This document shows positions 45,971-64,000 of a DNA stretch of 64,000 nucleotides, one piece after another. Each line of letters opens with the position of its first letter. Position 1 is the stretch's first letter. The position numbers were made by a program, and so were the translations under genes. The notes below the pieces were generated by a model. That model saw only the letters and a list, made by a program, of their open reading frames with translations, was not told where the DNA came from and made no database searches. This DNA is from Hyalangium ruber (GTDB lineage Bacteria > Myxococcota > Myxococcia > Myxococcales > Myxococcaceae): the NCBI RefSeq assembly GCF_034259325.1, contig NZ_JAXIVS010000002.1, positions 496,001-560,000 of the forward strand. The letters run 5' to 3'.

Positions 45971-46582
45971 TCACGCCTTGGCGGGCTCGGCGGGCTTCTC
46001 CTCCTTGCGCACGAAGGCGTCGAGGATGAGCAGGCCCACGCCCACGCAGATGGCCATGTCCGCCACGTTGAAGGAGGGCCAGTAGGCCTGGTCCTTCCAA
46101 TGCGCCTGGATGAAGTCCACCACGAAGCCGCGGGCGACCCGGTCGATGTAGTTGCCCAGCGCGCCGCCGAGCACCAGGCACAGGCCGAACAGCGCCCAGC
46201 GCTCCTTGGGGTCGGTGCCGGAGAGCTTGGTGAAGTAGTAGCCGATGAGGATGACCGCCCCGATGCTCACCAGGTGGAACAGGGGGCCGCGCACGTTGGG
46301 CGACAGGTTGCGGAACATGCCCCAGGCGGCGCCGGGGTTCTCCTCGTAGCGCAGGCGCAGGTAGCCGTTGATGACCTCGACGGGCTCCTTGCGCGAGGCG
46401 AAGTGCCGGCCATCGGGCCCCAGCGGAGGCGGCTCGCCATACATGGCGCCCAGGCGCTCGCCGAGCGTGACCTTGCCGTCGAACTGCCGCGTGAGCGAGC
46501 CGACGACGGCGAACTTGCTCCACTGATCCAAGACGATGAGGACCAGGGTGATGACGAGGAGGATGACGTATTTGCGCGGCAC
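45971..46582 (-). CDS. lspA: Signal peptidase II (copy 1)
   Basis: A 203-residue LspA, the aspartic protease that removes the signal peptide of diacylated prolipoproteins. Membrane helices at about 5-24, 95-115, 122-140 and 175-192. The catalytic aspartates are retained: GNYIDRVARGFVVDFI and FNVADMAICVG. A periplasmic insert (residues 40-90) is longer than in E. coli. Start GTG 46582. It lies 32 bases after a second lspA and before lgt. Confidence 0.93.
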   Translation of the reverse strand: MPRKYVILLVITLVLIVLDQWSKFAVVGSLTRQFDGKVTLGERLGAMYGEPPPLGPDGRHFASRKEPVEVINGYLRLRYEENPGAAWGMFRNLSPNVRGPLFHLVSIGAVILIGYYFTKLSGTDPKERWALFGLCLVLGGALGNYIDRVARGFVVDFIQAHWKDQAYWPSFNVADMAICVGVGLLILDAFVRKEEKPAEPAKA

Positions 46583-46614: not shown

Positions 46615-47241
46615 TCACGGATTGGGACTCTGGGCCAGCGGAGCCGGCGCCGGCTCGGAACGGCGCACGCGCAGCGAGTCCAGCAGCATCAGCGCCACGC
46701 CCACGCAAATGGCGGCGTCGGCCACATTGAAGGTGGGCCAGCGCATGCCGGGCTGGTTGCGCCAGTGCCAGTCGATGAAGTCGATGACGTAGCCGCGCGC
46801 CAGCCGGTCCATGAAGTTGCCCAGCGCGCCGCCCGCCACGAGCGACAGCGCCACGCGCACCAGGCGCTGGCCGGGCTCCAGCCGCACGTACATGGCGAAG
46901 ATGAAGGCCAGGGCCGCCAGGCTCACCACGTGGAAGAAGACCTTGCGCGCCGTGTCCGGCAGGTTGGCGAACATGCCCCAGGCAGCGCCGGGGTTCTCCA
47001 CGTAGCGGAAGTGCCAGTAGTCCTCGATGAAGCGATAGGGGCGGCTGGCGTAGTAGCGCCCCTCGCCCGGCGCGGGGTGGTTGTCCAGGTTCTTCTCGGA
47101 GAAGAAGCCCGCCACCCGGGACAGGCCGGTGCGCCCATCCAGCGCGTCCGTCAGCCGGGCCACGGCCAGGTACTTGGTTGCCTGATCCGCGGCCAGGGTG
47201 CTGAGGGCCACGAGGACAAGGATGCGTAGGGAATTCTTCAT
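46615..47241 (-). CDS. lspA: Signal peptidase II (copy 2)
   Basis: A 208-residue paralogue of the adjacent LspA, with the same layout: GNFMDRLARGYVIDFIDWHW and FNVADAAICVGVALMLLD carry the two catalytic aspartates. The periplasmic insert differs from copy 1. It is the first gene of the run lspA-lspA-lgt. GTG 47244 is an in-frame alternative start. Multiple LspA copies are known in M. xanthus, where extra copies relate to the LspA-targeting antibiotic TA (myxovirescin); whether that applies here is inference. Confidence 0.93.
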   Translation of the reverse strand: MKNSLRILVLVALSTLAADQATKYLAVARLTDALDGRTGLSRVAGFFSEKNLDNHPAPGEGRYYASRPYRFIEDYWHFRYVENPGAAWGMFANLPDTARKVFFHVVSLAALAFIFAMYVRLEPGQRLVRVALSLVAGGALGNFMDRLARGYVIDFIDWHWRNQPGMRWPTFNVADAAICVGVALMLLDSLRVRRSEPAPAPLAQSPNP

Positions 47242-47355
47242 CACACTCTGTCCTAACCCGTGCCCCCGAGCCCTGACAACCCGGGGTGAGCCCTAACGGC
47301 CCCATGCCCGCCTGCTCCAGGTTGCGCCCCCCCACTTTTCAGGCATGGTGCGACC

Positions 47356-47730: not shown

Positions 47731-49302
47731 TCACTGGTTGGGGACGAGGAAGTCCTTGATGACGCCCATGTGCTGCATGTTGGTGGCGGAGCTGTCGCCC
47801 GACTGCACCGGGGAGATCTCCGACAGCGGCGTGTAGACGCGGCTGTCGAGCACCAGCCCACCGGAGAAGGTACTCGAGCCGATCACCGTGGGGATCTGGT
47901 ACTGGCGCAGGTCGCCATCCACCAGCACGTGGTCATACGGCTTGCCCCGGCTGGCGTTGGTGTTGCCGTTGCCGTTCTTGTCCGCCGGGTACGGAGTGCC
48001 GGTCGCCACCACGCTGGAGAAGGTGGAGAAGCACGGCTCCGAGCGGTTATCGGTGTTGAGGTCTCCGCCGATGACCAGGTAGTCGCCCTGGGGCACGTTC
48101 TGGTTGATGTACCCCACGAGCTGGCTCGCCTCGGAGTTCCGGGTGGGGGAGTCTCGGGTCAGCAGGTGGACGCTGATGGCCCACAGGTCCTTCGGCCCGG
48201 GGATGTCGATGCGCGCCCAGGCGAACTCCCGGTTGGGAGACTGCGTATCCTCCCACTTGCCCGAGGCGAGGATGGGCCAGCGGCTGATGATGCCGTTGGG
48301 GATCTGCGCGCCGGGCTCCTGGTAGTAATGGAAGGAGGCGCCGAAGGAGTTGGTCACATAGCCACGCATGGCCGCGGCGCTCTTGTCCCCGTAGTTGAAC
48401 TCCTGGATGAGGATGACGTCCGGGTTCACGCCCTGCATCAGCCGGGTGCCGTGGCCCGGGTCATAGGACTGCTGGTTCCCGCTGGTGAGGTTGGAGGCCA
48501 TGATGCGGATGCGCGTGGAGCCCGCATCCGGCGTTCCGGCGTCGATGGGACCCGCATCCGGAGAGCCCGCGTCCGGCGTCCCGGAGTCCGGCGTTCCGGC
48601 GTCGATGGGGCCTGCGTCCGGAGAGCCCGCGTCGATGGGACCCGCATCCGGAGAACCGGCGTCGATGGGGCCCGCATCCGGAGAGCCCGCGTCGGTGGGA
48701 CCCGCGTCAGGCGTTCCGGCGTCGGTGGGGCCCGCATCCGGGCGCGTCCCGCCGTCGGTGCCCGCGTCACTCGGGAAGCCACCATCGGTGGGGTTGGTGC
48801 CTGCATCGGTGGGGTTGGTGCCCGCATCGGTGGGGTTGGTGCCCGCATCGGTGGGATTGGTGCCCGCATCGGTGGGGTTGGTGCCCGCATCGGTGGGATT
48901 GGTGCCCGCATCGGTGGGGTTGGTGCCGCCATCCGAACCGCTGCCCCCGTCACCAACCGAGGAGCCCCCGTCGCTCCCGGCATCCGACTGCTCGCAGACT
49001 TCGCGCGGCAGGCAGTACCCACCCGTGCCGCCGTCCTCGCCGCCTCCGCAGCACAGCTGCGACGGGTCCTGACACCCAGCCACGGCGTCGCAGGGATTCA
49101 CACACAGGGAGCGCTCATAGAGCTCCACGTACAAACAGGTCTGCCCCGGAGCGCAGGCGCCAGCGTCCTGCTCGTCGCAGAAGACCCAGCTGCCACCGTC
49201 GGGCGGCGGCGGCGGCACCGGCTTGTCATCAGGTCCGCAGGCTTGCAGACCCAGCATCAACACCAGGCCCGCCCCCAGGAGGCCAAAGAGTGTCTTCCTC
49301 AT
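47731..49302 (-). CDS. Lipoprotein with repeat linker and EEP (endonuclease/exonuclease/phosphatase) domain
   Basis: A 523-residue lipoprotein (lipobox LQAC, Cys 22). An N-terminal Cys-rich segment (about 38-110) is followed by about 120 residues of linker with seven TNPTDAG units and several PDAGPIDAGS units. The C-terminal part (about 245-523) has EEP-type motifs: RIMASNLTSGNQ, DVILIQEFNYGD, VIGGDLNTD, YDHVLVDG. Known EEP proteins hydrolyse phosphodiesters in nucleic acids or phospholipids; the surface location suggests extracellular substrates. An in-frame GTG far upstream would lose the signal peptide, so ATG 49302 is preferred. Confidence 0.85.
   Translation of the reverse strand: MRKTLFGLLGAGLVLMLGLQACGPDDKPVPPPPPDGGSWVFCDEQDAGACAPGQTCLYVELYERSLCVNPCDAVAGCQDPSQLCCGGGEDGGTGGYCLPREVCEQSDAGSDGGSSVGDGGSGSDGGTNPTDAGTNPTDAGTNPTDAGTNPTDAGTNPTDAGTNPTDAGTNPTDGGFPSDAGTDGGTRPDAGPTDAGTPDAGPTDAGSPDAGPIDAGSPDAGPIDAGSPDAGPIDAGTPDSGTPDAGSPDAGPIDAGTPDAGSTRIRIMASNLTSGNQQSYDPGHGTRLMQGVNPDVILIQEFNYGDKSAAAMRGYVTNSFGASFHYYQEPGAQIPNGIISRWPILASGKWEDTQSPNREFAWARIDIPGPKDLWAISVHLLTRDSPTRNSEASQLVGYINQNVPQGDYLVIGGDLNTDNRSEPCFSTFSSVVATGTPYPADKNGNGNTNASRGKPYDHVLVDGDLRQYQIPTVIGSSTFSGGLVLDSRVYTPLSEISPVQSGDSSATNMQHMGVIKDFLVPNQ
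48526..48935. repeat. Coding Asp-Ala-Gly tandem repeats
   Basis: Two repeat tracts inside the EEP lipoprotein gene. At about 48780-48927 a 21-base unit encodes seven TNPTDAG copies that differ only at synonymous third positions. At about 48526-48735 a 30-base-type unit encodes PDAGPIDAGS and similar. They are in frame and coding; they are not CRISPR repeats because there are no unique spacers. Confidence 0.85.
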
Positions 49303-49496
49303 CGAACGACCAATCCCTTGCTGCCGGAGGAGCGGGCTGTCAGTCAGCGCCGGCACACGGACGACCGGGCGATTATACGAAAGTTCAGCTCCCAACGCTT
49401 GGACCTTTGAGGGTGGTTTCGGGGTTGCCTGCCTCCTGAGACGGGCCGTGAAGGAGGGTGACGCCTCGCGGGAGGGCATGGGAGTCTCTGGCGGCG

Positions 49497-50255
49497 ATGA
49501 GCCCGAAACAGGTGCGGGTGCGCCTCTATGGTGCGTTGAACGACTTCCTCCCGCCCGAGCGACGCGGCGCCGAGTTCGTCCACACGTTCGCCGGCACACC
49601 CTCGGTGAAGGACCTGCTCGAGTCGCTGGGCCCGCCGCACCCCGAGGTGGACGTCATCCTCGTGGATGGCGAGGCCGTGGACTTCTCCCACCGGGTCGAG
49701 GACGGCACCCGCGTGGCGGCCTACCCGGCCTTCCACACGCTGGACGTGACGCCGGTGACGCGGGTGGGGCTGGAGCTGCCCGCCGAGCCGCGCTTCGCGC
49801 TCGACGTGGGGTTGGGGCGACTGTCCGGCTTCCTGCGGATGCTGGGCTTCGACACGCTGTGGCGCAACGACTTCGAGGACGACGTGCTGGCGCGCCTGTC
49901 CGGGGACGAGGAGCGGGTGGTGCTGACGCGAGACCTCGGGCTGCTCAAGCGCGCCGAGGTGCGGCACGGCTACTACCCGCGCAACACGGACCCGGCGCAC
50001 CAGTTGGTGGAGGTGGTGCGCCGCTACCAGCTCACCTCGCGCATGCGCCCGTTCACGCGATGCCTGGCCTGCAACGCCTCGCTGGAGGTGGCGGGACGAG
50101 ACGAGGTGCTTGACCGGATTCCCGAGGGCGTGGCCGCCACGCACTCGCGCTTCCAGCAGTGCCCCGAGTGCCGCCGCGTCTACTGGCCAGGTACGCACCA
50201 CCAGCGCATGCAGTCCCTGGTGGACAAGCTGCGAGAGCTGGAGCACGAGGCCTGA
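49497..50255 (+). CDS. Ub-Mut7C ribonuclease-type protein
   Basis: A 252-residue protein: an N-terminal ubiquitin-like domain (about 1-80; QVRVRLYGALNDFLPP, LLESLGPPHPEVDVILVDG) and a Mut7-C PIN-like RNase domain (about 90-252). In the latter, FALDVGLGRLSGFLRMLGFDT and VVLTRDLGLLKRA carry the acidic catalytic residues, and CLACN and CPEC form a zinc ribbon, ending YWPGTHHQRM. Proteins of this type are predicted RNA-degrading enzymes. ATG 49497. It diverges from the EEP lipoprotein and is convergent with the Tad cassette. Confidence 0.9.
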   Translation: MSPKQVRVRLYGALNDFLPPERRGAEFVHTFAGTPSVKDLLESLGPPHPEVDVILVDGEAVDFSHRVEDGTRVAAYPAFHTLDVTPVTRVGLELPAEPRFALDVGLGRLSGFLRMLGFDTLWRNDFEDDVLARLSGDEERVVLTRDLGLLKRAEVRHGYYPRNTDPAHQLVEVVRRYQLTSRMRPFTRCLACNASLEVAGRDEVLDRIPEGVAATHSRFQQCPECRRVYWPGTHHQRMQSLVDKLRELEHEA

Positions 50256-50259
50256 ACCT

Positions 50260-51201
50260 TCACCGCGGGCAGGCGCGGCCCAGGAAGCACTTGCCGCGCG
50301 CGCCGTAGGACGCGTGGTACTCGCTCGTCGGGCTGTCCTTGCCGGGCGTCGTCACCCAGTTGTTCGGATCCGAGTCGCCGCCGGGCTCCTCCTCCTGGAA
50401 GACACGGAAGCTCATATAGAAGGTGGAAGGGTCGAACCCGCCAGGAACCTGCCCCACCGTCTGCTGCGCGAGCGACAGGGAGGCACCCATCCGGGGCAGG
50501 TGCCTCATATAGATGCGATGGGTGGACTGGTAGTACTGCGGGTTCTCGCACTTGTTCCCCTTGAGCACCTTGCACTCGTCGACCTCGGTCCCGCTGGCAA
50601 GCCCCCAGTCATCCAGCAGGATGCGGAAGCCTCTCGGGCAGGAGCCTCCCTGAGCGCGGCCGACGCCGCACAGGGTCATCTTCAGCGGATTGAGGTGTCG
50701 CTCCCGGAAGAACGCGCCCACGCCCGAGTCGAGGAAGCTCTGGGGAAACACCTCCAACACCTCCATGCTGGCCTGAGAGCGGCACCGCATGGCACCCACA
50801 TCCTCGAAGACCGTGTTGCTGCGCTCGACAGGCGCGAAGCCAAGGCCCGAAGCGCCCGCGTCACACCGCACCTGGAGCGCACTGGCCCGGGTGAAAACGA
50901 GCCGCACCTCATCATCGCCAATCCGAGAGGTGCGCCCATCGAAGTCCCGGTAGCGCCGGGTGGCCTCACTGCCAGGAGTGTCCTCGGAGATGAGCTGGCG
51001 CACGGGCGTGAAGTCTCCAGGGAGCTCGTGCATCTTCGCGGCCGTGGCGTGCCAGAGGGCGCTGGCGTTGGCCTCCTGCACCTTCAGGGAGAGGAAGCCC
51101 ACCTCCGCGAAGTGCAGGCCGAAGACGAGAATGGTGATGAAGACGAGCAGCCCCAGCGCCGTCTCGAGCAGGGCTTGCCCTCGTGAGCGTGCGGTCACCA
51201 T
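50260..51201 (-). CDS. TadE-like protein, cassette A third gene
   Basis: A 313-residue TadE-type protein with N-terminal RGQALLETALGLLVFITILV, the TadE/prepilin-like G then Glu +5 pattern and a hydrophobic helix. The exported part contains several Cys (DECKVLKGNKCEN, KCFLGRACPR). It is far larger than typical TadE (about 150-200 residues). Its start overlaps the stop of the TadG-like gene by seven bases. Its paralogue is at 57331-58260. It may be an assembled pseudopilin or a secreted surface protein. Confidence 0.8.
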   Translation of the reverse strand: MVTARSRGQALLETALGLLVFITILVFGLHFAEVGFLSLKVQEANASALWHATAAKMHELPGDFTPVRQLISEDTPGSEATRRYRDFDGRTSRIGDDEVRLVFTRASALQVRCDAGASGLGFAPVERSNTVFEDVGAMRCRSQASMEVLEVFPQSFLDSGVGAFFRERHLNPLKMTLCGVGRAQGGSCPRGFRILLDDWGLASGTEVDECKVLKGNKCENPQYYQSTHRIYMRHLPRMGASLSLAQQTVGQVPGGFDPSTFYMSFRVFQEEEPGGDSDPNNWVTTPGKDSPTSEYHASYGARGKCFLGRACPR

Positions 51202-52790
51202 GCCTGGTACCCCTGCTTGGCCAGAGCGTCGGCCACATCCCGGGCCGGCGTACCGGTGGCCCCGAGGGTCGAGAGGATGTCCGGAACGTCGCGCGGCTGA
51301 TCCACATCGGCGCCCACGAGCGTGGCGCGCCAGAAGGGGTTGAGGAAGTTGGGAGGCTCCTTCCAGCGCTCATCAGCGCCCACGCGGTGGTAGTAGGCGA
51401 TGCCCGAAGACAGCGCGACGGCCCGGGAGATGTTGGTGCCATCCGTGAGCCGCAGGGCCCGGTTGTCGAACGTGGTGCCCTCTCCCGACGGATTGAAGCG
51501 GAAGCGGAAGAAGAGGTTCCACGGGTCCGGCGGGCGCTGCGTGTAGTCGCGCTGGAGGACGGCGTAGTTCTTCGGCTGCCCGAACAGGTCCGTGGTGTTC
51601 GCGACCCGCGAGTAGTTGTAGTCCATGTGCGACGGCCAAACGCCTGGGCACTTGGTGCAGTCCCCCAGGGTGTGCATCTGCCGGCGGCGGTTGGGGTCTT
51701 CACCCCCGGTCCACTTGTGCTCGTCGGTGTTGTGCTTGGAGTCATCGCTGCGCACGTGGGCATCCGCCTCCTCCGTGGTGGGAGGGAACGTCGGGCACGG
51801 AGATCTCGCGCGGCGGAAGACGACGGTCACCTGGCCATGGTCATCTCCGTAGACCGCCCCGCCATCCACGGTGCCGGTATGGCTCTTGCTCCCGGAGAAG
51901 TAGCCGCTGCCTTCATCGGTCAGCCGGACGAGCTCGTTCGCGGGCATGGACTGGATGACCTTCCTGCGAATGAGGGCCGCTCCCCCTTCTCGCCCGGTGA
52001 CGAAGGCATGGCCACGCGCGCCCGTGGAGGCCCAGACGAAGTGACTCTTCTTGTCGGCATCTCGCCGCTGGCAGACCGCGCCCGGACCTTTGCAGTCATT
52101 GCCCAGCTCCCGGCCGTTGACGGTGGCAGAGGCCTGGAGCGCCGAGACCTCCGCCCCAATGTCTCCGGCGATGGCGGGCGCAATGGGGGCATATCGCTCG
52201 CTCCGCGGGCTGAGATCCATCGCCACCTTGAGGCCCGCGAACGTCTCCAGCTGGTCCTCATGGATGGAGGACAACTGCAGGCTCAAGGCCTCCTCGCCCG
52301 CCCGCGCATCCCAGACACGGAAGACCTGCTCCGCCCTGTCATCCGCCCGCATGAGCCGATCCTGGGTGTTGTTGATGTCTTGGATGGCCTGCCTGGAGCA
52401 CCGACAGAGCCTCGCGCACCGGGAGCTCTTGGGCGCGCAAGGGCAGCTCGCCGCGGCGATGGCTTTGTATCCGTCCTTGGGAGTTTCATAGGCAGTCTTC
52501 GCCGCATGGAGGCTGGCGCGGTAGTAGCCGCTCCAGGAGATGAGGCTCTCCACGCCCGTCATGGCCACCATGTGGCTCATCAGCGCGCGGTTCATCAGTG
52601 CGATGCTGTTGAAGGCGCGCGCGGTGGCCACCGCCTGCGAGTAGGCGGCAGTGTCCGCCGCCGTCTCCAGCTCCATCTTCTCCTTGGCCTTCACTCCGAT
52701 GGACAGCGTCACGCACACCATCAGGGTGAGCAGCAGCAGCGTGAGCGCGAAGAGGACGAGCGTCTGGCCTCGGTGCGTGCGGTCTTGCAT
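51195..52790 (-). CDS. TadG-like protein, cassette A second gene
   Basis: A 531-residue TadG-type protein: RGQTLVLFALTLLLLTLMVC helix followed by VKAKEKMELETAADTAAYSQAVATARAFNS, characteristic of TadE/G-like minor pilins. The exported region has Cys clusters (SCPCAPKSSRCARLCRC, CTKCPGVWPSHMDYNYS) and no vWA domain that I can see. Paralogue at 58254-59906. Coupled by overlap to the next gene. Substrate or location of assembly is not shown. Confidence 0.82.
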   Translation of the reverse strand: MQDRTHRGQTLVLFALTLLLLTLMVCVTLSIGVKAKEKMELETAADTAAYSQAVATARAFNSIALMNRALMSHMVAMTGVESLISWSGYYRASLHAAKTAYETPKDGYKAIAAASCPCAPKSSRCARLCRCSRQAIQDINNTQDRLMRADDRAEQVFRVWDARAGEEALSLQLSSIHEDQLETFAGLKVAMDLSPRSERYAPIAPAIAGDIGAEVSALQASATVNGRELGNDCKGPGAVCQRRDADKKSHFVWASTGARGHAFVTGREGGAALIRRKVIQSMPANELVRLTDEGSGYFSGSKSHTGTVDGGAVYGDDHGQVTVVFRRARSPCPTFPPTTEEADAHVRSDDSKHNTDEHKWTGGEDPNRRRQMHTLGDCTKCPGVWPSHMDYNYSRVANTTDLFGQPKNYAVLQRDYTQRPPDPWNLFFRFRFNPSGEGTTFDNRALRLTDGTNISRAVALSSGIAYYHRVGADERWKEPPNFLNPFWRATLVGADVDQPRDVPDILSTLGATGTPARDVADALAKQGYQAW

Positions 52791-52798
52791 GGCGAGCC

Positions 52799-53599
52799 TC
52801 ACAGGCGCTGCGGCATGTCGCCGCAGTTCTGTTGCTGGAAGTGCTGGGCCTGGGCGGGCGTCATCATCCGCATGCCGTAGGTGGCCTGGATGGGGAAGAC
52901 GTACTGGCGCGAGTCGAAGCGGCTCACGAACTCGTCGCGGATCTTCCGATCCAGTCCCGGAACCGCCCTACCCGCCGTCCAGCCCGCATGCTTCTGAGCC
53001 AGCATCAGCGGGTTCGCGGCGGTGTAGTCGCGCAGGCCGTAGTGCGCCAGGAACATGCGGCTCATCACCCAGTCCGCGAAGGGCACCTTCAGCGGGAACC
53101 AGTAGATGAGGCGCACCTCCAACCGGATGCCGCCCTCCTCCCGCCCGGGAGCATCGAAGCGCTCGTCCTCTGGACCCGGCACGCTCTCGGCCAGGGGCTG
53201 CTCGCGCGCCAGCCAGAAGATGGGACCGTCATGCTGGCCATCCACGCCGGGCTTGTAGCGAGGCTCGGGCTTCTCCGTGTCGCCGATCCGCTGACGCCAG
53301 GCCAGCGCCAGCTTCTCCGCAGCGGTGCCCCCTCGCGTCCCATTGCCCAGGTAGGGCACGACGCTGGGCAGCAACCCCGCCAGGGTCGCGTGCATCATCC
53401 GCTTGCAGTCGCCGTGGTGGCGACTGCCGGCCCGCACTGCTTCGAAGGCGGCGTACTCGGCCATGATGCGGCCCTGCAGCATCAAGAAGAGCTGCAGCGT
53501 GCCGAGGATGAGAAAGACGGTGAGAGGTAGCGTCAGCGCGGCCTCCACGGCCGCCTGCCCGGACTCCCCCCGTTGGTGTCCGTTCGTCCGAGAAATCAT
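52799..53599 (-). CDS. TadE-like protein, cassette A first gene
   Basis: A 266-residue TadE-type protein: ESGQAAVEAALTLPLTVFLI with the G then Glu +5 prepilin pattern, then MLQGRIMAEYAAFEAVRAGSR, the typical TadE helix. The exported part includes EVRLIYWFPLKVPFADWVMS and YVFPIQATYGMRMM. Start ATG 53599 or GTG 53605; both lie inside a perfect palindrome. Eight bases separate it from the TadG-like gene. Confidence 0.82.
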   Translation of the reverse strand: MISRTNGHQRGESGQAAVEAALTLPLTVFLILGTLQLFLMLQGRIMAEYAAFEAVRAGSRHHGDCKRMMHATLAGLLPSVVPYLGNGTRGGTAAEKLALAWRQRIGDTEKPEPRYKPGVDGQHDGPIFWLAREQPLAESVPGPEDERFDAPGREEGGIRLEVRLIYWFPLKVPFADWVMSRMFLAHYGLRDYTAANPLMLAQKHAGWTAGRAVPGLDRKIRDEFVSRFDSRQYVFPIQATYGMRMMTPAQAQHFQQQNCGDMPQRL

Positions 53600-53624
53600 T
53601 TCCACACAGTGTGGAAATGATTTC
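53592..53624. promoter_or_regulatory. Perfect 33-base palindrome over the cassette A start codon
   Basis: GAAATCATTTCCACAC-A-GTGTGGAAATGATTTC, an exact inverted repeat with 16-base arms. The left arm, read on the minus strand, contains the start codons of the TadE-like gene (GTG 53605, ATG 53599). The A/T content is far above the surroundings. It could be a repressor site or an mRNA hairpin that hides the start codon. No T-run follows on either strand within 10 bases, so a terminator for ileS is less likely. Confidence 0.6.
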
Positions 53625-53718
53625 CCACCGGGGTAACCCCCCGCTGATCAGCGACTGTCGTGAAGCGCGCGGCTCACCGTGCGCGCGTGCAGGCTTCTCG
53701 ACGTCTCCGCCGAGACTG

Positions 53719-56619
53719 TCAGGCCCCGAGCGCCTCGTGGCACTTGGGACACACCCCGTGGTCCGAGCTCACTGTCTCCGAGTAGACCCAGCAGCGCGGG
53801 CACTTCTCACCCCGGGCGCGCAGCACCTCCGCCGTCACCGTCACGCCCTCGCCGAACGCCTGGGCCAGGGAGAGCGGCTGGGCCTTGGGCCCCGGCTGAT
53901 CCGCCAGCTCCACCTGGCTCACGATGAACATCATCGGCAGCTCCTCCCGATGCGCCTGGAGGAACTCCCGCGCCGCGCCGCTCGCTGTCAGCACCACCCG
54001 CGCCTCCAACGAGGCGCCGATGAGCTTCTCGCGCCGAGCCACCTCCAGCACGCCCTGCACGGCGCTCCGGAGCGCGAAGAGCTTGCCGTATCGCTCCGCC
54101 AGCGCGGGCTCCAACGAAGCCCCGGCGCTCGGAAAGTCCGACAGGAAGACGCTCTCGGCCGCCTTGCCAGGAAGCTGCTGCCAGGCCTCCTCCGCCGTGA
54201 AGCTCATCACCGGCGCCAGCAGGCGCAGCAGCGCGGAGGCCACCTCGTGCAGCACGGTCTGGGCGCTGCGCCGCGCCTTGCTGCCCGCCTTCGCCGTGTA
54301 GAGCCGGTCCTTCAGGATGTCGAAGTACACCGCCGACAAATCCGCCGCGCAGAAGTCCACCACCGTGGCGTAGACAAGGTGGAACTCATAGTCCTCGTAC
54401 GCCCGGCGCACCCGCTCCACCACCTCCGCCAGCCGCCCGCGTGCCCACAGGTCCAAAGGCAGCAGCTCGGAGTCCGGCACCGCGTCCCTCGCCGGCTCGA
54501 AGTCGTAGAGGTTGCCCAGCGCATAGCGCAGCGTGTTGCGGATCTTCGCGTAGCCCTGGCTCAGCCCCTGGAGGATCTGATCCGACAGCCGCACGTCGTT
54601 GCGGTAGTCGCTGGCGGCCACCCACAGCCGCAGCACCTCGGCGCCGTACTGCTGGATGATCTTCTCCGGGGCGATGACGTTGCCCTTGCTCTTGGACATC
54701 TTCTCGCCCTGCCCGTCCACCACGAAGCCGTGGGTGAGACAGGCCCGGTAGGGCGATTTGTCCCGCGTGCCCACCGACACCAGCATGGACGAGTGGAACC
54801 AGCCCCGGTGCTGGTCGCTGCCCTCCAGGAACAGGTCGGCGGGGATGCGCTGCCGCTTCTCCAGCACCGCCGAGAACATGCACGCCGAGTCGAACCACAC
54901 GTCCAGGATGTCCGTCTCGCGCCGGAACTGGCCGCCGCCGCACTTGATGCAGCGCCCGCCCGCGCCCAGGAACTCCTCCACGGGCGTGCGATACCAGGCA
55001 CCCACGCCCTCCTTCTCCACCGCCGCCGCCACGCGCTCCATCACCTCCGGGGAGACGACGGCTTCCTGGCACTGCTCGCAGTAGGCGATGGGGATGGGCA
55101 CGCCCCAGGTGCGCTGCCGGCTGATGCACCAGTCCGGACGCCCCTCCAACATTCCGCGGATGCGGCTGTGTCCCCACCCGGGCACCCAGCGCACCGTGTC
55201 CACCTCGGCGAGCACCTGCTCGCGGAAGGTCTTCTCGCCCTGCAGCGGCTTGTCCAGCGGGATGAACCACTGGTACGTCGCCGAGAGGATGATGGGGTTT
55301 CGGCAGCGCCAGCAGTGCGGATAGCTGTGCTTCACCGTGTCCGTCTTCGCGTTGAGCAGCGCACCTCGCTCCGCCAGCAGGTCGATGATGACCGGGTTGG
55401 CCTCGAACACCCGCAGGCCGCGCAGCCCCTCGCCTACCGTGTCGTCGTAGCGCCCGTCTCCGCGCACCGAGTTGTAGATGTCCAGCCCGTACTTCAGGCC
55501 GACCTCATAGTCCTCCTGACCGTGACCCGGCGCCGTGTGGACCAGCCCCGTGCCCGCCTCCAGCGTCACGTGCTCGCCCAGCACCACCTTGCCCGTGCGC
55601 TCCAGGAAGGGGTGGCGGTAGCTCAGGTGCTCCAGGTCCTCGCCGCTGGCGTAGGCGAGGATCCTCCGGATGTCATCGAACCCCACCGTCTCCACGTCGC
55701 CGCCCGGCAGCTTCGCGTTCTTGAGCACCAGCTCGTCCGCCTTCACCTCCGCCAGCACCTGGGCCAAGAGCTGCTTGGCCACGCAGATGACGCGCCCGCC
55801 CAGGTCATAGAAGACGTACTCGAAGTCCCGGTGGGCCGCGATGGCCAGGTTGGCGGGCAACGTCCACGGCGTCGTGGTCCAGATGACGAAGAAGACCTCG
55901 CGCCCGCGCAGCGCCGGGAACCGCTCGGAGAGCTCCGGCCCCGCCGGGAAGGCCACGTACACCGAGGGGCTCTGGTGCTCCTCGTACTCCACCTCCGCCT
56001 CGGCCAGCGCCGTCTGGTCGTGGACGCACCAGTACACTGGCTTCTTGCGCCGGTAGAGCATGCCCCGCCGTGCGAACGCCGCCAGCTCGCGCAGCTCCTG
56101 CGCCTCGTACGCGGAGTCCAGCGTCCGGTACGGCGCCTCCCAGGTCCCGAAGACGCCCAGCCGCTGGAACTCGGCCCGCTGGATGTCGACGAACTCCAAC
56201 GCGTAGGCGCGGCAGCGCTCCAGGAACGCGTCGCGCGACAGGGTGCGCTTGTCGACCTTCTGCTCCTTGAGCCGCTTCTCCACCGCCTGCTCGATGGGCA
56301 GGCCGTGCGTGTCCCAGCCGGGGATGAAGTCGCACCGGCGCCCCGAGAGGTTCCGCGACTTCACCACGATGTCCTTGAGCACCTTGTTGAGCGCGTGCCC
56401 GGCGTGCAGGTGGCCATTGGCGTACGGAGGCCCGTCGGCCAACACGAACGGCTCGGCGCTCGCGTTCTTCTCCAGGAGCTTCTTCCAGATGCCACGCTCG
56501 GCCCACCACTCGAGCATCCGCGGCTCGAGCCGCGCGAGGTTCCCCTTGATGGGGAACTCCGTGCGCGGCAGGTTCAGCGTGTCCTTGTAGTCCTTGGGAG
56601 GCGAGCCTGCGTCACTCAT
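53719..56619 (-). CDS. ileS: Isoleucine-tRNA ligase
   Basis: A 966-residue class I synthetase. Signatures: PYANGHLHAGHALNK (HIGH type), GRRCDFIPGWDTHGLPIE, the editing domain region (VIWTTTPWTLPANLAI), KMSKSKGNVI (KMSKS) and a C-terminal zinc finger CPRCWVYS with CPKCHEALG. The protein is complete and typical. It lies between the two Tad-like cassettes on the same strand, probably as a bystander. Gap of 34 bases to the unknown exported-protein gene upstream. Confidence 0.97.
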   Translation of the reverse strand: MSDAGSPPKDYKDTLNLPRTEFPIKGNLARLEPRMLEWWAERGIWKKLLEKNASAEPFVLADGPPYANGHLHAGHALNKVLKDIVVKSRNLSGRRCDFIPGWDTHGLPIEQAVEKRLKEQKVDKRTLSRDAFLERCRAYALEFVDIQRAEFQRLGVFGTWEAPYRTLDSAYEAQELRELAAFARRGMLYRRKKPVYWCVHDQTALAEAEVEYEEHQSPSVYVAFPAGPELSERFPALRGREVFFVIWTTTPWTLPANLAIAAHRDFEYVFYDLGGRVICVAKQLLAQVLAEVKADELVLKNAKLPGGDVETVGFDDIRRILAYASGEDLEHLSYRHPFLERTGKVVLGEHVTLEAGTGLVHTAPGHGQEDYEVGLKYGLDIYNSVRGDGRYDDTVGEGLRGLRVFEANPVIIDLLAERGALLNAKTDTVKHSYPHCWRCRNPIILSATYQWFIPLDKPLQGEKTFREQVLAEVDTVRWVPGWGHSRIRGMLEGRPDWCISRQRTWGVPIPIAYCEQCQEAVVSPEVMERVAAAVEKEGVGAWYRTPVEEFLGAGGRCIKCGGGQFRRETDILDVWFDSACMFSAVLEKRQRIPADLFLEGSDQHRGWFHSSMLVSVGTRDKSPYRACLTHGFVVDGQGEKMSKSKGNVIAPEKIIQQYGAEVLRLWVAASDYRNDVRLSDQILQGLSQGYAKIRNTLRYALGNLYDFEPARDAVPDSELLPLDLWARGRLAEVVERVRRAYEDYEFHLVYATVVDFCAADLSAVYFDILKDRLYTAKAGSKARRSAQTVLHEVASALLRLLAPVMSFTAEEAWQQLPGKAAESVFLSDFPSAGASLEPALAERYGKLFALRSAVQGVLEVARREKLIGASLEARVVLTASGAAREFLQAHREELPMMFIVSQVELADQPGPKAQPLSLAQAFGEGVTVTAEVLRARGEKCPRCWVYSETVSSDHGVCPKCHEALGA

Positions 56620-56653
56620 GGGCGGGGGGCCGTAGCACGCCCCTCCAGGCCCA

Positions 56654-57340
56654 TCAATGCGCGTCCGGCGGACGTGTTCCCTCGGCGCTGATACGGCGCA
56701 TGACCGTCACCGAGAGGTACGCTCCCTTGGCGGGGTGTACCGTCACCAGCAGCTCCTCGTTGCCCTTGCGGTAGATGTTGGGCTCCGCCTCGGTGTAGCC
56801 CTGCTGGATGAGCTGCTTGCGGTAGAAGCCCTCCACGTCGGGCGACGTGGTGGAGGCCGGCACCCGGAACGAGAGCGTGCGCGCCACCTCCAGGTCACTG
56901 TGCATCACATTCTTCGCCCCCGGGAAGACGGGCGCGATGGGCGAGGAGGGCGGCTGCGCCAGCGCGAGGTTGGCCTCGCCCAACACCACCGTGGTGCTGC
57001 CATCCGGGTTGGGCTGGATGATGAAGGTGTAGGAGATGAGCCGTTCGGTATCCAGCGCCGTGAGCTGCGGCTCCTTGAGCCACTGGGTCCGCTTGGGGGG
57101 GATGTAGAAGCCCCACGCCTCGAAGCGATCCACCATGTGCTGGAGGATGACTTCCGGCCGCTCGGCGCTCTTCACCGAACGCAGCTTCACGGGGACGCCC
57201 CCGGCTTTCATGATGCCGGGCACGTCCACCGTCTCGATGACCTTGGGCACGTCCCAGGTGAAAGGCAGCCGCTGAGCGGCGGCCTCACCGGCCCCCAGCA
57301 GCACCACCAGCCCCACCAGGATGGCCCGCGTCAATTGCAC
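56654..57340 (-). CDS. Exported protein of unknown function
   Basis: A 228-residue protein with signal peptide LTRAILVGLVVLLGAGEAAA. The mature part is soluble and mixed alpha/beta (VMHSDLEVARTLSFRVPAST, YRKQLIQQGYTEAEPNIYRKGNEELLVTVHPAKG) and has two repeated-looking halves. I do not recognise a family. Its start overlaps the stop of the preceding TadE-like gene by ten bases, so it may be translated with cassette B; cassette A has no equivalent. Confidence 0.65.
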   Translation of the reverse strand: MQLTRAILVGLVVLLGAGEAAAQRLPFTWDVPKVIETVDVPGIMKAGGVPVKLRSVKSAERPEVILQHMVDRFEAWGFYIPPKRTQWLKEPQLTALDTERLISYTFIIQPNPDGSTTVVLGEANLALAQPPSSPIAPVFPGAKNVMHSDLEVARTLSFRVPASTTSPDVEGFYRKQLIQQGYTEAEPNIYRKGNEELLVTVHPAKGAYLSVTVMRRISAEGTRPPDAH

Positions 57341-58260
57341 CTCAACCCCAGCCAGCAGTTCTCACGGGCGCTGTAAGAGCTGTCGTACTCCGTGGTCGGG
57401 CTGTCGGTGCCAGGCGTCGTCACCCAGTTGCCAGGGTCCGAGTCGCCACCGTTCTCCCTGTCCTCGAAGACGCGGAAGGAGTGGTAGAAGGTCGCCGGAT
57501 CGAAGCCGCCCGGCACGGACATGACGGACTGCTGGGCCAGCGCCCGCGCCGAGCCATTCGTCGCCACGTGCTGGTCGTACACGAGGTTGGTGGAGCGGTA
57601 GTACGGCGAGTTGTTGCACCCCGAGCCATCGAGCACGTTGCACTCCCGGAGCTCGTCCCGGGTGGCCAGCGCCCAGTCATCCAGCAGGATGCCGATCTGC
57701 CCCTGGCAGCCGCCACTGCCTCCGCGGTTGACGCCGCAGATCGTCAGGTCCGTGGCCTCGTAGTGCCGCTCCTTGAAGAAGCCACCGTTGCCCTCCATGA
57801 AGCCGCGGGGGAACACGGGCAGCACCTGGAAGACGGCCTCCGAGCGGCAGACCATGCCGCCGGTGTCACTGTAGACGCTGTCGGTCGTGCCCACCGGCGC
57901 GAAGCTGGGCCCGCCCGCCTCGCAGGTGACCTGGAGCCCCTGCCCCCGGGTGAACAGCTGGGAGGAGCCACTGCCACCCGACTTCGAGGTGCGCCCATCG
58001 AAGTCCGCGTAGAGCCCGTTGGCCGCCTGGCCCGGCCTGTTGCCGGAGATGAGGTTGTTCACGTGCGAGAAGTTGCCCGGCAGCTCGTGCATCCGCGCCG
58101 CCGTGGCGTGCCACATCGCGCTGGCGTTGGCCTCCGTCACCTTGAGCGACAGGTAGCCGATCTCGGCGAAGTGGATGCCGAACATGAGAACGGTGATGAA
58201 GACCAGCAGGCCCAGGGCGAGTTCCACCGCAGCCTGACCTCTGGAGCGCTTGGCTACCAT
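57331..58260 (-). CDS. TadE-like protein, cassette B third gene
   Basis: A 309-residue paralogue of the cassette A protein at 50260: RGQAAVELALGLLVFITVLM, then HFAEIGYLSLKVTEANASAMWHATAARMHEL. The C-terminus has the shared NWVTTPGTDSPTTEYDSSYSAR pattern. Start ATG 58260 overlaps the TadG-like stop by seven bases, the same overlap as in cassette A. Confidence 0.82.
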   Translation of the reverse strand: MVAKRSRGQAAVELALGLLVFITVLMFGIHFAEIGYLSLKVTEANASAMWHATAARMHELPGNFSHVNNLISGNRPGQAANGLYADFDGRTSKSGGSGSSQLFTRGQGLQVTCEAGGPSFAPVGTTDSVYSDTGGMVCRSEAVFQVLPVFPRGFMEGNGGFFKERHYEATDLTICGVNRGGSGGCQGQIGILLDDWALATRDELRECNVLDGSGCNNSPYYRSTNLVYDQHVATNGSARALAQQSVMSVPGGFDPATFYHSFRVFEDRENGGDSDPGNWVTTPGTDSPTTEYDSSYSARENCWLGLRCN

Positions 58261-59906
58261 GCCCTGTACCCCGCGTTGTTGAGCGCCTCGACGACGCGCT
58301 GCGCTTCTTGGAGATTGGCGGCGCCCAGCGTCTGGGTGATGTCGGAGACATCGCCCGGCTGCAGGTCGACGTCCGCGCCCACCAGCGTGGCGCGCCAGAA
58401 TGGATTGAGGAAGTTGGGAGGCTCCTGGTACGAGCCCTGCTGCACGCGGTGGTAGTAGGCGATGCCCGCCGACAACGCGGTCGCGTGGGAGATGTCCGTG
58501 CCACCCTGGGACACCAGCTTCAGGCCGGTGTTGTCGAACACCGTGCCCGAACCACTCTGCTTGAAGTGGAAGGTGAAGAGCAGGTTCCACGGGTCGGCCT
58601 GCTTGGCGGGCCGCTGGCTCAGGTCCCGCTCCATGACGGAGTAGGTCTTCGGCTGCCCGAAGTTGTTGGCGTTGTCGGTGACCTGCTGCCAGTTGTAATC
58701 CATGTGCGGAGGCCACATGCCCGGGCAGTTGTTGCAGTCGCCCATGGTGTGCTGCCGCTCGCGGCCGCCATCGCCGCCCGACTGGCCGCTCCACCGGTGC
58801 TCATCGTCGCCCGCCGAGCCGCTGGTGTCGTTGCTGCGCACGTGCGCCCTCGGCGAGCCCGAGCCGGGGATGCCCGGCGGGCACGGGGCCTGGTTGCGCA
58901 GGAACGTGGTCGTCAGGTTGCCGTGGTCATCACCCCAGGCGTGCTTGTTGCCCGTGGGGCCCTCGCTCGAGTGCGAGGGGCCGTCGTTGTCGGCGAAGTA
59001 GCCGCTGCCGTCGTTGGAGATGGTGACGAGATCCGGCGGGGTAATGATGGTGATGAGCCGCGTGCGAATGGCGTTGGCCCCACCCGAGCGGCCGGTGACG
59101 AAGGCGTGGCCGCGCGTGCCCATGGCCGCCCAGATGAAGTGGTTCTTGTGGCCAGCGTCGCGGCGCCGGCAGGCGGCGCCCTCCTTCTGCTGGCACTGGC
59201 CGGCGTCCTGCTCGACCTTGTTCACATCGTCCGAGGCGGGCAGCGCCTTGACCTCCTGGGCGCCCCACTTGTTGCCCTTGTTGAGCTCCTGGGCAATGGA
59301 CGCGCCGATGTTGAGCGAGCCAGTGAGGTTCTCGTCCAGCAGGCGGTCGAACAGCTCGTTCTGGCGGTCGCTGACGCTGGAGATCTGCAGCGCGCGCGCC
59401 TCCAGGCCCGCCTGTCCGTCCAGGCTCTGGAAGACCTGGTCGACGCGGTCATCCTCCTGCTTGAGCTTGTCCTGCGTGTCCGTGATGTCCTGGACGGCCT
59501 GGGTGGCGCACCGGCACATGGGCGGATTGCAGGTGGGACCGGGGCAGGCGCAGGCCGCGGCCATGATGAGCTCGTACTGCGTCTTGGGAGTGTCGTAGGA
59601 GTCGCGCGCCTCGTTCAGCACGGCCCGGTAGTAGCCGGCCCAGGAGATGAGGCTCTGCACGCCCGCCATCGCCACCATGTTGCTCATCAGGGCGCGGTTG
59701 AGCAGCGAGATGCTGTTGTAGGTGCGGGCGGTGGCCACCGCCTGCGAATAGGCGGCGGCATCAGCGGCCGTCTCCAGCTCCATCTTCTCCTTGGCCTTGG
59801 TGCCAATGGAGAGCGTCATGCACACCATGAGGGTGAGCAGGAGCAGGGTCAGCGCGAAGATGACGAGCGTCTGGCCTCTGGGGCGAAGGGGGTTCATCGT
59901 TGCCAT
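58254..59906 (-). CDS. TadG-like protein, cassette B second gene
   Basis: A 550-residue paralogue of the cassette A TadG-like protein: RGQTLVIFALTLLLLTLMVC, then AADAAAYSQAVATARTYNSI. It keeps CNNCPGMWPPHMDYNWQQ and NFLNPFWRATLVGADVD. The Cys clusters differ slightly (ACACPGPTCNPPMCRC). Start ATG 59906, one base after the TadE-like stop, so translation is coupled. ATG 59897 is an alternative. Confidence 0.82.
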   Translation of the reverse strand: MATMNPLRPRGQTLVIFALTLLLLTLMVCMTLSIGTKAKEKMELETAADAAAYSQAVATARTYNSISLLNRALMSNMVAMAGVQSLISWAGYYRAVLNEARDSYDTPKTQYELIMAAACACPGPTCNPPMCRCATQAVQDITDTQDKLKQEDDRVDQVFQSLDGQAGLEARALQISSVSDRQNELFDRLLDENLTGSLNIGASIAQELNKGNKWGAQEVKALPASDDVNKVEQDAGQCQQKEGAACRRRDAGHKNHFIWAAMGTRGHAFVTGRSGGANAIRTRLITIITPPDLVTISNDGSGYFADNDGPSHSSEGPTGNKHAWGDDHGNLTTTFLRNQAPCPPGIPGSGSPRAHVRSNDTSGSAGDDEHRWSGQSGGDGGRERQHTMGDCNNCPGMWPPHMDYNWQQVTDNANNFGQPKTYSVMERDLSQRPAKQADPWNLLFTFHFKQSGSGTVFDNTGLKLVSQGGTDISHATALSAGIAYYHRVQQGSYQEPPNFLNPFWRATLVGADVDLQPGDVSDITQTLGAANLQEAQRVVEALNNAGYRAW

Positions 59907-59907
59907 C

Positions 59908-60717
59908 TCACAGGCCCTCGGGGGTTTCGCCGCAGTTCTGCCGCTGGAAGAAACGGGACTTGGCCGGCGTCATCATCCGCATGCCGTAGGTGGCCTGGAT
60001 GGGGAAGACGTACTTCTGCGCGCTGGCCATGCTCTGGTACTTGCTGCGGATCTGCGAATCGAGCGTCGGCGCCGAGTTGCCAGCCGTCCAGCCCGCGTTC
60101 CGCTGCGCCGGCATCAGTGGGTTGACGGCGTTGTAGTCCTGCAGGCCGAAGTGGGCCATGAACATGCGCGTCATCACCCAGTCCGCGAAGGGAATCCGCA
60201 GCGGGAACCAGTAGATCAGCCGCACCTCCAGGCGCATGCCACCGCCGCCATCGACGGGGGCGTCGAAGTTGCGGTCCTCGGGGTCCGGCACGTTGGTGGG
60301 CTGCTCGCGCGCCAGCCAGAAGATGCTCTCGCCGGCCAGGCTCGAGCCGCCCAGGGTGCTCTGGGTGCTGTCCATGGCGACGAAGCGGGGGTTGCCGCCG
60401 TTGATGCGCTCGCGCCACGCGGACGCCAGCTTCTCGGCGGGGCTGCCACCCGAGGTGCCGCTACCCAGATACGTCACCACGTTGGGCAGCAGCGCCGCGA
60501 GGCCCGCATGCATCATCTTCTCGCAGTCGCCGTGGTGGCGGCTGCCGGCGCGCACCGCCTCGAAGGCGGCGTACTCGGCCATGATGCGACCCTGCAGCAT
60601 CATGAAGAGCTGTATCGTTCCAAGGACGAGGAACACGGTGAGCGGCAGCGTCAGCGCCGCCTCTACCGCCGCCTGTCCGGACTGCCCACGGGACGATCTC
60701 TGATTCCTGGAAGCCAT
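59908..60717 (-). CDS. TadE-like protein, cassette B first gene
   Basis: A 269-residue TadE-type protein: GQSGQAAVEAALTLPLTVFL with the G then Glu +5 prepilin pattern, then MLQGRIMAEYAAFEAVRAGSR, identical in that block to the cassette A copy. It includes a GGSSLAGESIFWLAREQP segment similar to its paralogue. First gene of cassette B. The 184 bases upstream, to the sigma-54 activator stop at 60902, show no recognisable promoter or palindrome like that of cassette A. Confidence 0.82.
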   Translation of the reverse strand: MASRNQRSSRGQSGQAAVEAALTLPLTVFLVLGTIQLFMMLQGRIMAEYAAFEAVRAGSRHHGDCEKMMHAGLAALLPNVVTYLGSGTSGGSPAEKLASAWRERINGGNPRFVAMDSTQSTLGGSSLAGESIFWLAREQPTNVPDPEDRNFDAPVDGGGGMRLEVRLIYWFPLRIPFADWVMTRMFMAHFGLQDYNAVNPLMPAQRNAGWTAGNSAPTLDSQIRSKYQSMASAQKYVFPIQATYGMRMMTPAKSRFFQRQNCGETPEGL

Positions 60718-60901: not shown

Positions 60902-62335
60902 TCAGCGGGGTTTCATACCCTTGGCATCGAGCTGGTACTTCTTCACCAGCCGCTCGATGGACTTGCGGTGCAGGCCGCTCTCGCGGGCGGCGCGGGAGAG
61001 GTTGCCCTCGCAGCGGGCCAGCACGCTGGTGATGTACTCGCGCTCGAAGTTCTCCAGCAGCTGCTCCTTGGCGTCCTTGAAGGAGAGGTGCTCGTTGAAG
61101 GGCAGCGGCCCCTCGCGGGCCTGACCGCGCACGCGGGGCGGCAGGTGCGTGGGGAGGATCTCCTCCCCTTCCGAGAAGGTGAGCACGTGCGAGAGCACGT
61201 TCATCAGCTCGCGCACGTTGCCGGGCCACGTATAGGCCATGAGCATGCTCAGCGCCTCGGGGGAGAAGCGCTTGCGGCCGTGGCGCTCCACCACCTCGGG
61301 CTCGGCCAGGGCGCCCTTGAGGATGTGGGGGATGTCATCGCGGCGCTGGCGCAGCGGCGGCAGGTGGATGTGGATGACCGAGAGGCGGAAGTACAGGTCC
61401 TCGCGGAAGGCGCCCGCGGCGATCTCCTTCACCAGGTCGCGGTTGGTGGCGGCGATGACGCGGCAGTCCACTTCGATGACGTCGTTGCCGCCGACGCGCC
61501 GCACCTCGCGGTTCTCCAGCACGCGCAGGAGCTTGGGCTGCAGGTCCAGCCGCAGCTCGCCCAGCTCGTCCAGGAAGATGGTGCCGCCTTGCGCGCGCTC
61601 GAAGGCGCCGGGGCGGGCGCTCACCGCGCCGGTGAAGGCACCCTTCTCGTGGCCGAACAGCTCGCTCTCGATGAGGTTGGGCGGAATGGCGCCGCAGTCG
61701 AGCACCACCAGCGGCCCCTTCTTGCGGCCCGACAGCTCGTGGACCGCGCGCGCCACCAGCTCCTTGCCCGTGCCCGTCTCGCCCTGAATGATGACGGACA
61801 CGTCCATGGGGGCGATGCGTTTGATGAGCCCGAAGATCTGCCGCATCTTCACGCTCTGCCCCACCATGCCGCACAGCTCGCCTTCGCGGTCGGGTTCGAT
61901 CGTCACCTCCTCGTCGATGGGCGAGAAGGTGACGGTGCTGGAGCCCGCGCGAATCTGCGAGCCGGGCGAGAGGTAGGCCCGCTCAATCCGGCGTCCATCC
62001 AGGAAGGTGCCGTTGGTGGAGTTGAGGTCCACCAGCAGGTAGCCGCGCTCGGTGTACTGAATCTCGAAGTGGTGGCGGCTGGCGGTGCGGTCCTCCACGA
62101 GGACCAGGTCGTTCTGCGGGTGGGCGCCCACGCGCAGCCGCTCCTTGTCCGTCACGAGCTGGCGCCCCTCGTCCGGGCCGGACGAGACGTGCAGACGGCA
62201 CTTGTGCAGCTTGACGGTGGTGCGGTGGTCCATCACCAGCGTGTGGCTGGGGGCTTGCGGCACGCTGCCCAGGTCGACGCCGACGTCTCCTGGGTTGGTG
62301 CCAATGTCGTCCGGGTGCGGTCCGTGGGGGCTCAT
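60902..62335 (-). CDS. FHA-domain sigma-54-dependent transcriptional activator
   Basis: A 477-residue enhancer-binding protein. An FHA domain is at about 50-135 ([40 protein letters not shown]), the AAA+ domain at about 155-390 (Walker [15 protein letters not shown] loop, Walker B GGTIFLDE), and a Fis-type HTH at the C-terminus ([20 protein letters not shown]). FHA-containing sigma-54 activators bind phosphothreonine and link Ser/Thr kinase signalling to transcription; myxobacteria have many. It lacks a receiver domain. Targets unknown. Divergent from the RimK-type gene. Confidence 0.95.
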
Positions 62336-62413
62336 CCGCCCCGGAGGATAGCAAACGGAGCCGTCAAGGCTGCTCGGCTGCTGCCCTGCTCGTGCTAGGC
62401 TTCGCCGCCCTCC

Positions 62414-63430
62414 ATGCCCCCCCGCAAGGCGAAGACGAAGAAGGCGCGAGCTCCGGCTCGCCCCGAGACGCCCGAGAGCGCTGTCGCGCCCGAGCCCCGC
62501 CCTGCCCGCCGCCGCGCGAAGAAGACCGTGGTCATCCTCTCGCGCAAGCGCGCGCTGTACTCCACGCGCAGGCTGGTGGAGGCCATCAAGCAGCATGGGC
62601 ACCGGCCGCTGGTGCTCGACACGCTGCGCTGCAGCATGATCCTCGCCAAGAGCCAGCCGCGGATGATGTATCGCGGGGTGGAGATCCGCGGCGTGGACGT
62701 GGTGATTCCGCGGATCGGCGCCTCCATCACCGCCTACGGGCTGGCGGTGGTGACGCACTTCGACATGATGGGCATACCGGTGGTGAACGGGGCGCAGTCC
62801 ATCGCCCGGAGCCGGGACAAGCTGCGGTGCCTGCAGCACCTCACGCGCGCGGGGCTGGACATGCCGCGCACGGTGATGGCGCATGACCGCAGCAACGTGC
62901 GCAAGCTGGTCGAGGAGGTAGGAGGGCTGCCCCTCATCATCAAGCTCATCCGGGGCACGCAAGGCGTGGGAGTGATGATCGCCCACACGCTGCCGGAGGT
63001 GCAGACCATCGTCGACACCTTCTGGGACCTGGGCCAGGAGATCGTGCTCCAGGAGTTCGTCGCCGAGAGCAAGGGCCGAGACGTGCGCGCCCTGGTGGTG
63101 GGGGAGCGGGTGGTGGGGGCGATGCGGCGACAAGCACAGAAGGAAGGCGAGTTCCGCTCGAACATCCACCGGGGCGGAGAGGGACAGCCCATCCGGCTGC
63201 CTCCTTCCTATGTAGAAGCGGCAGTGACAGCGGCCCGCACCATCGGTCTGGGTATCGCGGGGGTGGACATGCTGGAGGGCAACGCCGGCCCGCGCCTGAT
63301 GGAGATCAACTCCAGCCCGGGTTTCGAGGGGCTGGAGAAGGCCACGGGGCAGGACATCGCCGGTTTCATGGTGGAGTACGCGCTGGCCTTCTCGGAGGGC
63401 AAGCAGGTCAGCACGGTGAGCGGCAGGTAA
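62414..63430 (+). CDS. RimK-type ATP-grasp ligase
   Basis: A 338-residue RimK/LysX-family alpha-L-glutamate ligase. An N-terminal Lys/Arg/Pro-rich extension (about 1-36) is followed by VVILSRKRALYSTRRLVEAI, then the ATP-grasp core (LIIKLIRGTQGVGV, ESKGRDVRALVVGERVVGAM, LMEINSSPGFEGLEKATG). RimK adds glutamates to ribosomal protein S6; other members modify carrier proteins. The N-terminal tail is not usual for RimK and may guide it to nucleic acid or a partner. ATG 62414 is 79 bases from the divergent activator start. Confidence 0.9.
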   Translation: MPPRKAKTKKARAPARPETPESAVAPEPRPARRRAKKTVVILSRKRALYSTRRLVEAIKQHGHRPLVLDTLRCSMILAKSQPRMMYRGVEIRGVDVVIPRIGASITAYGLAVVTHFDMMGIPVVNGAQSIARSRDKLRCLQHLTRAGLDMPRTVMAHDRSNVRKLVEEVGGLPLIIKLIRGTQGVGVMIAHTLPEVQTIVDTFWDLGQEIVLQEFVAESKGRDVRALVVGERVVGAMRRQAQKEGEFRSNIHRGGEGQPIRLPPSYVEAAVTAARTIGLGIAGVDMLEGNAGPRLMEINSSPGFEGLEKATGQDIAGFMVEYALAFSEGKQVSTVSGR

Positions 63431-63562
63431 GCAGCGGTGTGGTGAGGGGTTACCGGGCGTACGAGCCCTCCACTTGGTGGATCCTGCGGGAATGAGCGTA
63501 GCGATCCCTTTGTCAGGGGGATTGGCAGTTGGGATCCGCCCCTCTAATCTGGGCGCCTCCGA

Positions 63563-64000
63563 ATGAGAGCCCTGCTGCCAAAGCCGCTGCAGATCACCGT
63601 CTACCAGGATGTGCTGTGCGCCTGGTGTTACCTCGCCGACCTGCGCCTGGACACCCTCCGGCACGAGTTTGGCGACGCCGTTCGCTGGCGCGTGCGCCCC
63701 TATCCGCTGCGTATCCAGGACACGCTGCCCACGGAGCGCGAGCTACGTGGGCTGTCCGAGGAAGTGCAACGGGCCAAGGGCGAGCCAGAGACCCTGGCGC
63801 GACAGCTGTCCACGGACTTGTGGTTGGCGGGAGATCCGCCCCGCTCGAGTCTGCCAGGACTGGCGGCGCTGGAAGCGGCGCGACTCCAAGGCCCCCAGGC
63901 GCGAGTGTTCCTCGCGCGGGCCATGCAACGCGCGGCGCTGGAGCAAGGCGTGAACGTGTCGCGCACCGACGTGGTGTTCGAGCTGGCCAGCCGCGTGGGG
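63563..64000 (+). CDS. DsbA/FrnE-family thioredoxin-fold protein, 3' truncated by window end
   Basis: 146 codons are visible. The sequence QITVYQDVLCAWCYLADLRL shows the CxxC active site CAWC that follows the first strand, and VRWRVRPYPLRIQD is typical of DSBA-like (FrnE, PF01323) proteins, which have a helical insertion (about 55-130 visible). No signal peptide is seen, so it is probably cytoplasmic, as FrnE is. Start ATG 63563. The gene continues past 64000, and its 3' end is not seen. Confidence 0.8.
   Translation, partial: MRALLPKPLQITVYQDVLCAWCYLADLRLDTLRHEFGDAVRWRVRPYPLRIQDTLPTERELRGLSEEVQRAKGEPETLARQLSTDLWLAGDPPRSSLPGLAALEAARLQGPQARVFLARAMQRAALEQGVNVSRTDVVFELASRVG

Follow-up and report, generated by a model that had tools for sequence, protein, structure and literature searches.

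Paralogous minor-pilin cassettes on either side of ileS in Hyalangium ruber, very probably tip clusters of a Kil-type Tad pilus

Two three-gene cassettes of minor-pilin-like proteins lie on either side of the housekeeping gene ileS (53719..56619, minus strand) in a 64,000-nucleotide stretch of the Hyalangium ruber genome, here called the window (G000:C2:496001-560000 of a draft genome of 10.77 Mb in 43 contigs). Cassette A (60717-57331) and cassette B (53605-50260) are both on the minus strand and share the gene order TadE / large TadG-like / TadE-like; ileS itself stands outside the tip genes and adjoins cassette A in fifteen of the loci compared from relatives. In cassette A, gene 1 (59908..60717) encodes a TadE-type minor pilin of 269 aa, assigned by PF07811 (E 6.8e-9), a G/QAAVE motif (the slash marks the cleavage site) and synteny with relatives; gene 2 (58254..59906) encodes a large KilN/TadG-like tip pilin of 550 aa, assigned by PF13400 (E 1.3e-5), its tree and an AF2 model; and gene 3 (57331..58260) encodes a TadE-like minor pilin of 309 aa with a large exported part, which also carries G/QAAVE and is syntenic in relatives. 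The corresponding genes of cassette B encode a TadE-type minor pilin of 268 aa (52799..53605; PF07811, E 2.7e-8), a KilN/TadG-like tip pilin of 535 aa (51195..52802) and, last in the cassette, a TadE-like minor pilin of 313 aa with a G/QALLE motif (50260..51201). All six ORFs are intact and lie where a preliminary description of this DNA had placed them.

The gene 1 products of both cassettes pass the Pfam gathering score for TadE (PF07811), the TadE scores of gene 3 fall under the Pfam cut-off in both (A, 0.0017; B, 0.55), and gene 2 scores above the cut-off of the Tad TadE/G-like family PF13400 in A and just below it in B. Genes 2 and 3 overlap by 7 bases in A (58254-58260) and in B (51195-51201), and the gene 1/2 junctions are unlike, with a 1-base gap in A and a 4-base overlap in B. 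The cassettes are 70% identical in DNA over 3.4 kb and 68, 56 and 58% identical in the proteins of genes 1, 2 and 3, far beyond chance. The preliminary description is thus borne out in its account of two paralogous TadE-TadG-TadE cassettes on one strand and in one order around ileS, with a shared gene 2/3 overlap, long common DNA blocks and a TadG-type middle gene; it was also right that these minor pilins are oversized (268-550 aa) and that the first and third proteins carry the G/Glu+5 pattern, found as G/xxxxE in both. Its Cys-rich exported parts hold for gene 2 (11 Cys in each copy) and gene 3 (8), and not for gene 1, which has only 2.

Gene 2 differs from its neighbors in having G/QTLV(I/L)F, without Glu5. 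In type IV filaments this residue is usually missing from the outermost minor pilin, for example GspK, so its absence from gene 2 fits a position at the tip. Over the 100 N-terminal residues of gene 2, A and B share 64-88% identity, against 28-36% at residues 176-250 and 276-325; conservation of the docking part and divergence of the exposed part would give such a pattern. The AF2 model of the A protein (mean pLDDT 78.6) predicts a 94-residue alpha1, two more long helices and a beta scaffold. A Foldseek search with this model returned nothing significant, and matches from a second look were generic long helices only; a PDB sequence search with the gene 2 family gave no match, and an NCBIfam search with the six cassette proteins gave no useful one.

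Behind its three pilin genes, cassette A has a fourth (56654..57340, minus strand), missed in the preliminary description, that encodes a predicted exported accessory protein of 228 aa with two alpha/beta domains (AF2 pLDDT 89.5). Gene 4 follows 37 of the 40 A/B-like cassettes, the exceptions being B, the counterpart of B in G091 (a genome of another genus) and one cassette of G093; it is single-copy in H. ruber, with none after cassette B. Its profile matches that of the accessory protein in a further cassette cluster on contig C14 (probability 97, E 4e-11), and the C14 protein in turn matches the accessory protein of the cluster on contig C8 (probability 93, E 3e-7, with only three sequences per profile). 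Direct comparison of gene 4 with the C8 gene is weak (probability 18), and the two are related here through the C14 link. Searches with gene 4 gave no match among PDB sequences for the family and no Foldseek match with E under 0.001 for the model. A second structural look found PA1624 (Z 9.3 over 102 residues, 2.5 A) and the Eag chaperones SciW/EagT6 (Z 7-7.6); the apparent likeness of the first domain to these folds, with Z mostly in the range of common arrangements, is a lead only. Eag chaperones load type VI effectors.

Several other elements surround the cassettes. A gene combining FHA and sigma-54 activator domains (60902..63664, minus strand), identified by Pfam and synteny, is conserved directly upstream of the ileS-linked cassette, and a regulatory link is putative; no -24/-12 sigma-54 promoter consensus was found upstream of A or B. 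A 33-base A+T-rich inverted repeat with 16-base arms (53592..53624; hairpin z -4.3) spans the start of cassette B gene 1, occurs once in the genome and is not in the other loci compared; it may serve as an operator or form a hairpin at the start codon. Adjoining cassette B, a plus-strand gene (49458-50255) encodes a Mut7-C RNase domain fused to a ubiquitin-like Mut7-C domain. At 47731-49599 (minus strand) lies a gene for a predicted exported protein in which a long TNPTDAG-type repeat separates a Cys-rich part from the C-terminal domain. Two tandem genes for similar membrane proteins (45971-46582 and 46615-47244, minus strand), called lspA (signal peptidase II) from sequence only, are kept downstream of ileS in several relatives.

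Myxococcus xanthus recognises and kills prey with a Tad-type pilus, Kil (Herrou 2025, PMC12075869). In the main text of that paper, four paralogous kilLMN clusters encode interchangeable pilus tips required for contact killing; deletion of all four abolishes both killing and pilus formation, and KilN is described as having two long helices and a large beta scaffold. The rest of the system is distributed over two core clusters, with a separate major pilin, KilP, and the adapters KilK (cluster II) and KilO (tip3 cluster) (PMC12075869; Seef 2021, PMC8460266).

The H. ruber genome matches this system part by part, and on that basis we read the cassettes as Kil Tips. Exactly four TadE/TadG cassettes occur genome-wide, namely the window pair and single ones on C8 and C14. 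After the C8 cassette come a small KilK-like Flp gene, RcpC and genes for two T2SSF platform proteins, so that one of several paralogous clusters lies inside the kil/tad locus, as expected of KilLMN Tips; the C14 cassette has its own small, KilO-like Flp pilin gene, different from that of C8. Contig C12 holds a prepilin peptidase, a secretin and an FHA-ATPase together, like KilA-KilC-KilF, and C11 encodes a 116-aa Flp-type candidate for a KilP-like major pilin that scores under the Pfam cut-off. With this candidate, the genome has the full set of a Tad pilus system: TadA-type ATPase, secretin, RcpC/CpaB, two platform proteins, prepilin peptidase and Flp. The preliminary description had taken the Tad machinery to be absent; this is so in the window, where ATPase and secretin HMMs have no match, and not so genome-wide, where a search for the core genes recovered secretin, FHA-ATPase, RcpC and two platform proteins on contigs other than that of cassettes A and B. 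Within the cassettes themselves, the features of a KilLMN Tip are found as three adjacent minor-pilin genes with a prepilin cleavage motif and a hydrophobic alpha1 helix, and the distal domain of the A gene 2 model fits the published description of KilN. The genome also contains two FHIPEP-type export-gate genes, so it may encode a T3SS*-related type III apparatus.

One cassette lies upstream of ileS in Archangium violaceum, A. lansinium and 12 more sampled relatives, and such ileS-linked cassettes are nearly always found between the FHA/sigma-54 activator gene and ileS, fourth gene included. Cassette A holds this place, the one found in most of the relatives sampled, and B the other side of ileS. 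The closest relative of B is the unlinked G091 cassette, whose gene 2 is 72% identical and whose DNA similarity to B stops at the cassette borders. Phylogeny of the cassette proteins, as proposed in the preliminary description, gave the topology (A,(B,G091 cassette)) for all three genes with support of 89 to 100, and this agreement indicates that the three genes travel together. The ileS-linked cassettes of G091 and G093 do not group with A, so the cassette beside ileS may have undergone gene conversion or been replaced. Among the matches listed for 96 genomes of the family, closely spaced pairs of cassettes occur only in H. ruber and in G091, where both copies are in tandem on the same side of ileS, upstream (L052 7440-15685). 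The G091 repertoire, at least six A/B-like tip cassettes (L051-L055), exceeds the four of M. xanthus. The closed genome G022 (L030, L031) carries a second KilN4-like gene, 57% identical to the C8 protein, away from its kil locus. Archangium has a separate Tip2-type cassette (L045/L046); no Tip2-type cassette was found in H. ruber. From the sequences, cassette B appears to be a diverged duplicate of A, which gives the genome two Tips of one type together with a KilO-linked (Tip3-like) and a kil-cluster-II (Tip4-like) cassette.

We conclude that both cassettes very probably encode heterotrimeric Tip complexes of the KilL/KilM/KilN type belonging to a Kil Tad pilus; homology, gene order, genome-wide machinery and phylogeny are from this analysis, and function is from the published M. 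xanthus work. Each cassette would supply one heterotrimer that primes and caps the pilus. The prepilin peptidase would cut the leaders at the G/Q site, the N-terminal helices would dock into the KilP pilus through an Flp adapter, and the disulfide-rich distal domain of the large KilN (gene 2) would contact prey, with alternative Tips widening the prey range. These two protein sets would presumably work as in M. xanthus, and we infer that cassette B adds to or replaces Tip2 function. Cassette A is probably the equivalent of M. xanthus Tip1 by genome order, the Tip1 and Tip2 labels resting here on gene order. For this assignment the cassettes of the closed relative G022, at 451, 884 and 1413 kb, were scaled against MXAN numbering, with KilO as mxan_1150; M. 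xanthus tip gene numbers beyond KilO and Tip4 are not in the main text of PMC12075869.

Neither in this genome nor in the relatives compared are the cassettes linked to tad core genes, as would be expected of a self-contained complex, secreted or in the envelope, that relied on prepilin processing and not on the Kil pilus. Such a complex is very unlikely, given that paralogues lie inside the kil/tad locus on C8 and that in M. xanthus kilLMN clusters at separate sites can genetically replace one another as tips of a single pilus (main text of PMC12075869). The preliminary description had proposed a myxobacterial envelope structure rather than a classic Flp pilus; the envelope structure stands, but the minor pilins most likely cap a Tad pilus instead of forming an alternative to one.

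Two further rival readings concern how the pair arose and whether both members function. That A and B are Tip1 and Tip2 joined by rearrangement would account for a genome with no other Tip2-like cassette; we regard this as extremely improbable, since both fall with full support in the ileS-linked (Tip1-type) clade and the Tip2-type cassettes of relatives, Archangium included, form separate clades. Cassette B might instead be a duplicate that is in decay or silent and has no separate function, as its missing fourth gene and the stable hairpin over the start of its gene 1 could suggest, but its three ORFs are intact, its motifs and Cys counts are kept, its three genes yield one tree and an unlinked homologue persists in another genus, all of which make this reading unlikely.

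The main text of PMC12075869 does not take up gene 4; term searches there found only pilins named in the tip clusters. Tentatively, it may be a dedicated and so far unnamed exported partner of Kil Tips, a chaperone or docking factor found beside every Tip type; the predicted resemblance of its first domain to PA1624 and the Eag chaperones suggests that it might act as chaperone to the KilN tip or to an effector carried on the tip. If gene 4 is a Tip partner, cassette B would share the copy of cassette A. The finding as a whole is real but largely explained by the published Kil system, and the novelty claimed in the preliminary description falls away, since contig C8 has a Tad locus with genes of this kind in its pilin cluster. 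What is new here is the local extra cassette copy and the fourth gene. An apparently orphan pilin pair is now tied to a predation pilus, tip repertoires are seen to grow as a three-gene unit, found at unlinked sites too, is duplicated, and the conserved tip-linked fourth gene is directly testable in M. xanthus.

With classic tad/flp loci (tadE, tadF, tadG) the cassettes share TadE and TadG-like domains and prepilin motifs, but differ in minor pilins that are larger, occur in duplicate and lie away from the core genes. They are closer to the Kil Tips (KilL/KilM/KilN 1-4), described in the main text of PMC12075869, having in common TadE/TadF/TadG-type minor-pilin trios of oversized, Cys-rich proteins and four scattered paralogous clusters, one in kil cluster II and one with its own Flp adapter (KilO); H. 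ruber departs from the M. xanthus Tips in having ileS between two clusters of the ileS-linked type, in yielding no Tip2-type cluster and in the absence of the fourth gene from cassette B. No difference in layout from the Kil Tad-like apparatus (Seef 2021, PMC8460266) was detected at the level tested, and the two have in common a core split into prepilin peptidase, secretin and FHA-ATPase on the one hand and CpaB/RcpC, two platform proteins and pilins on the other.
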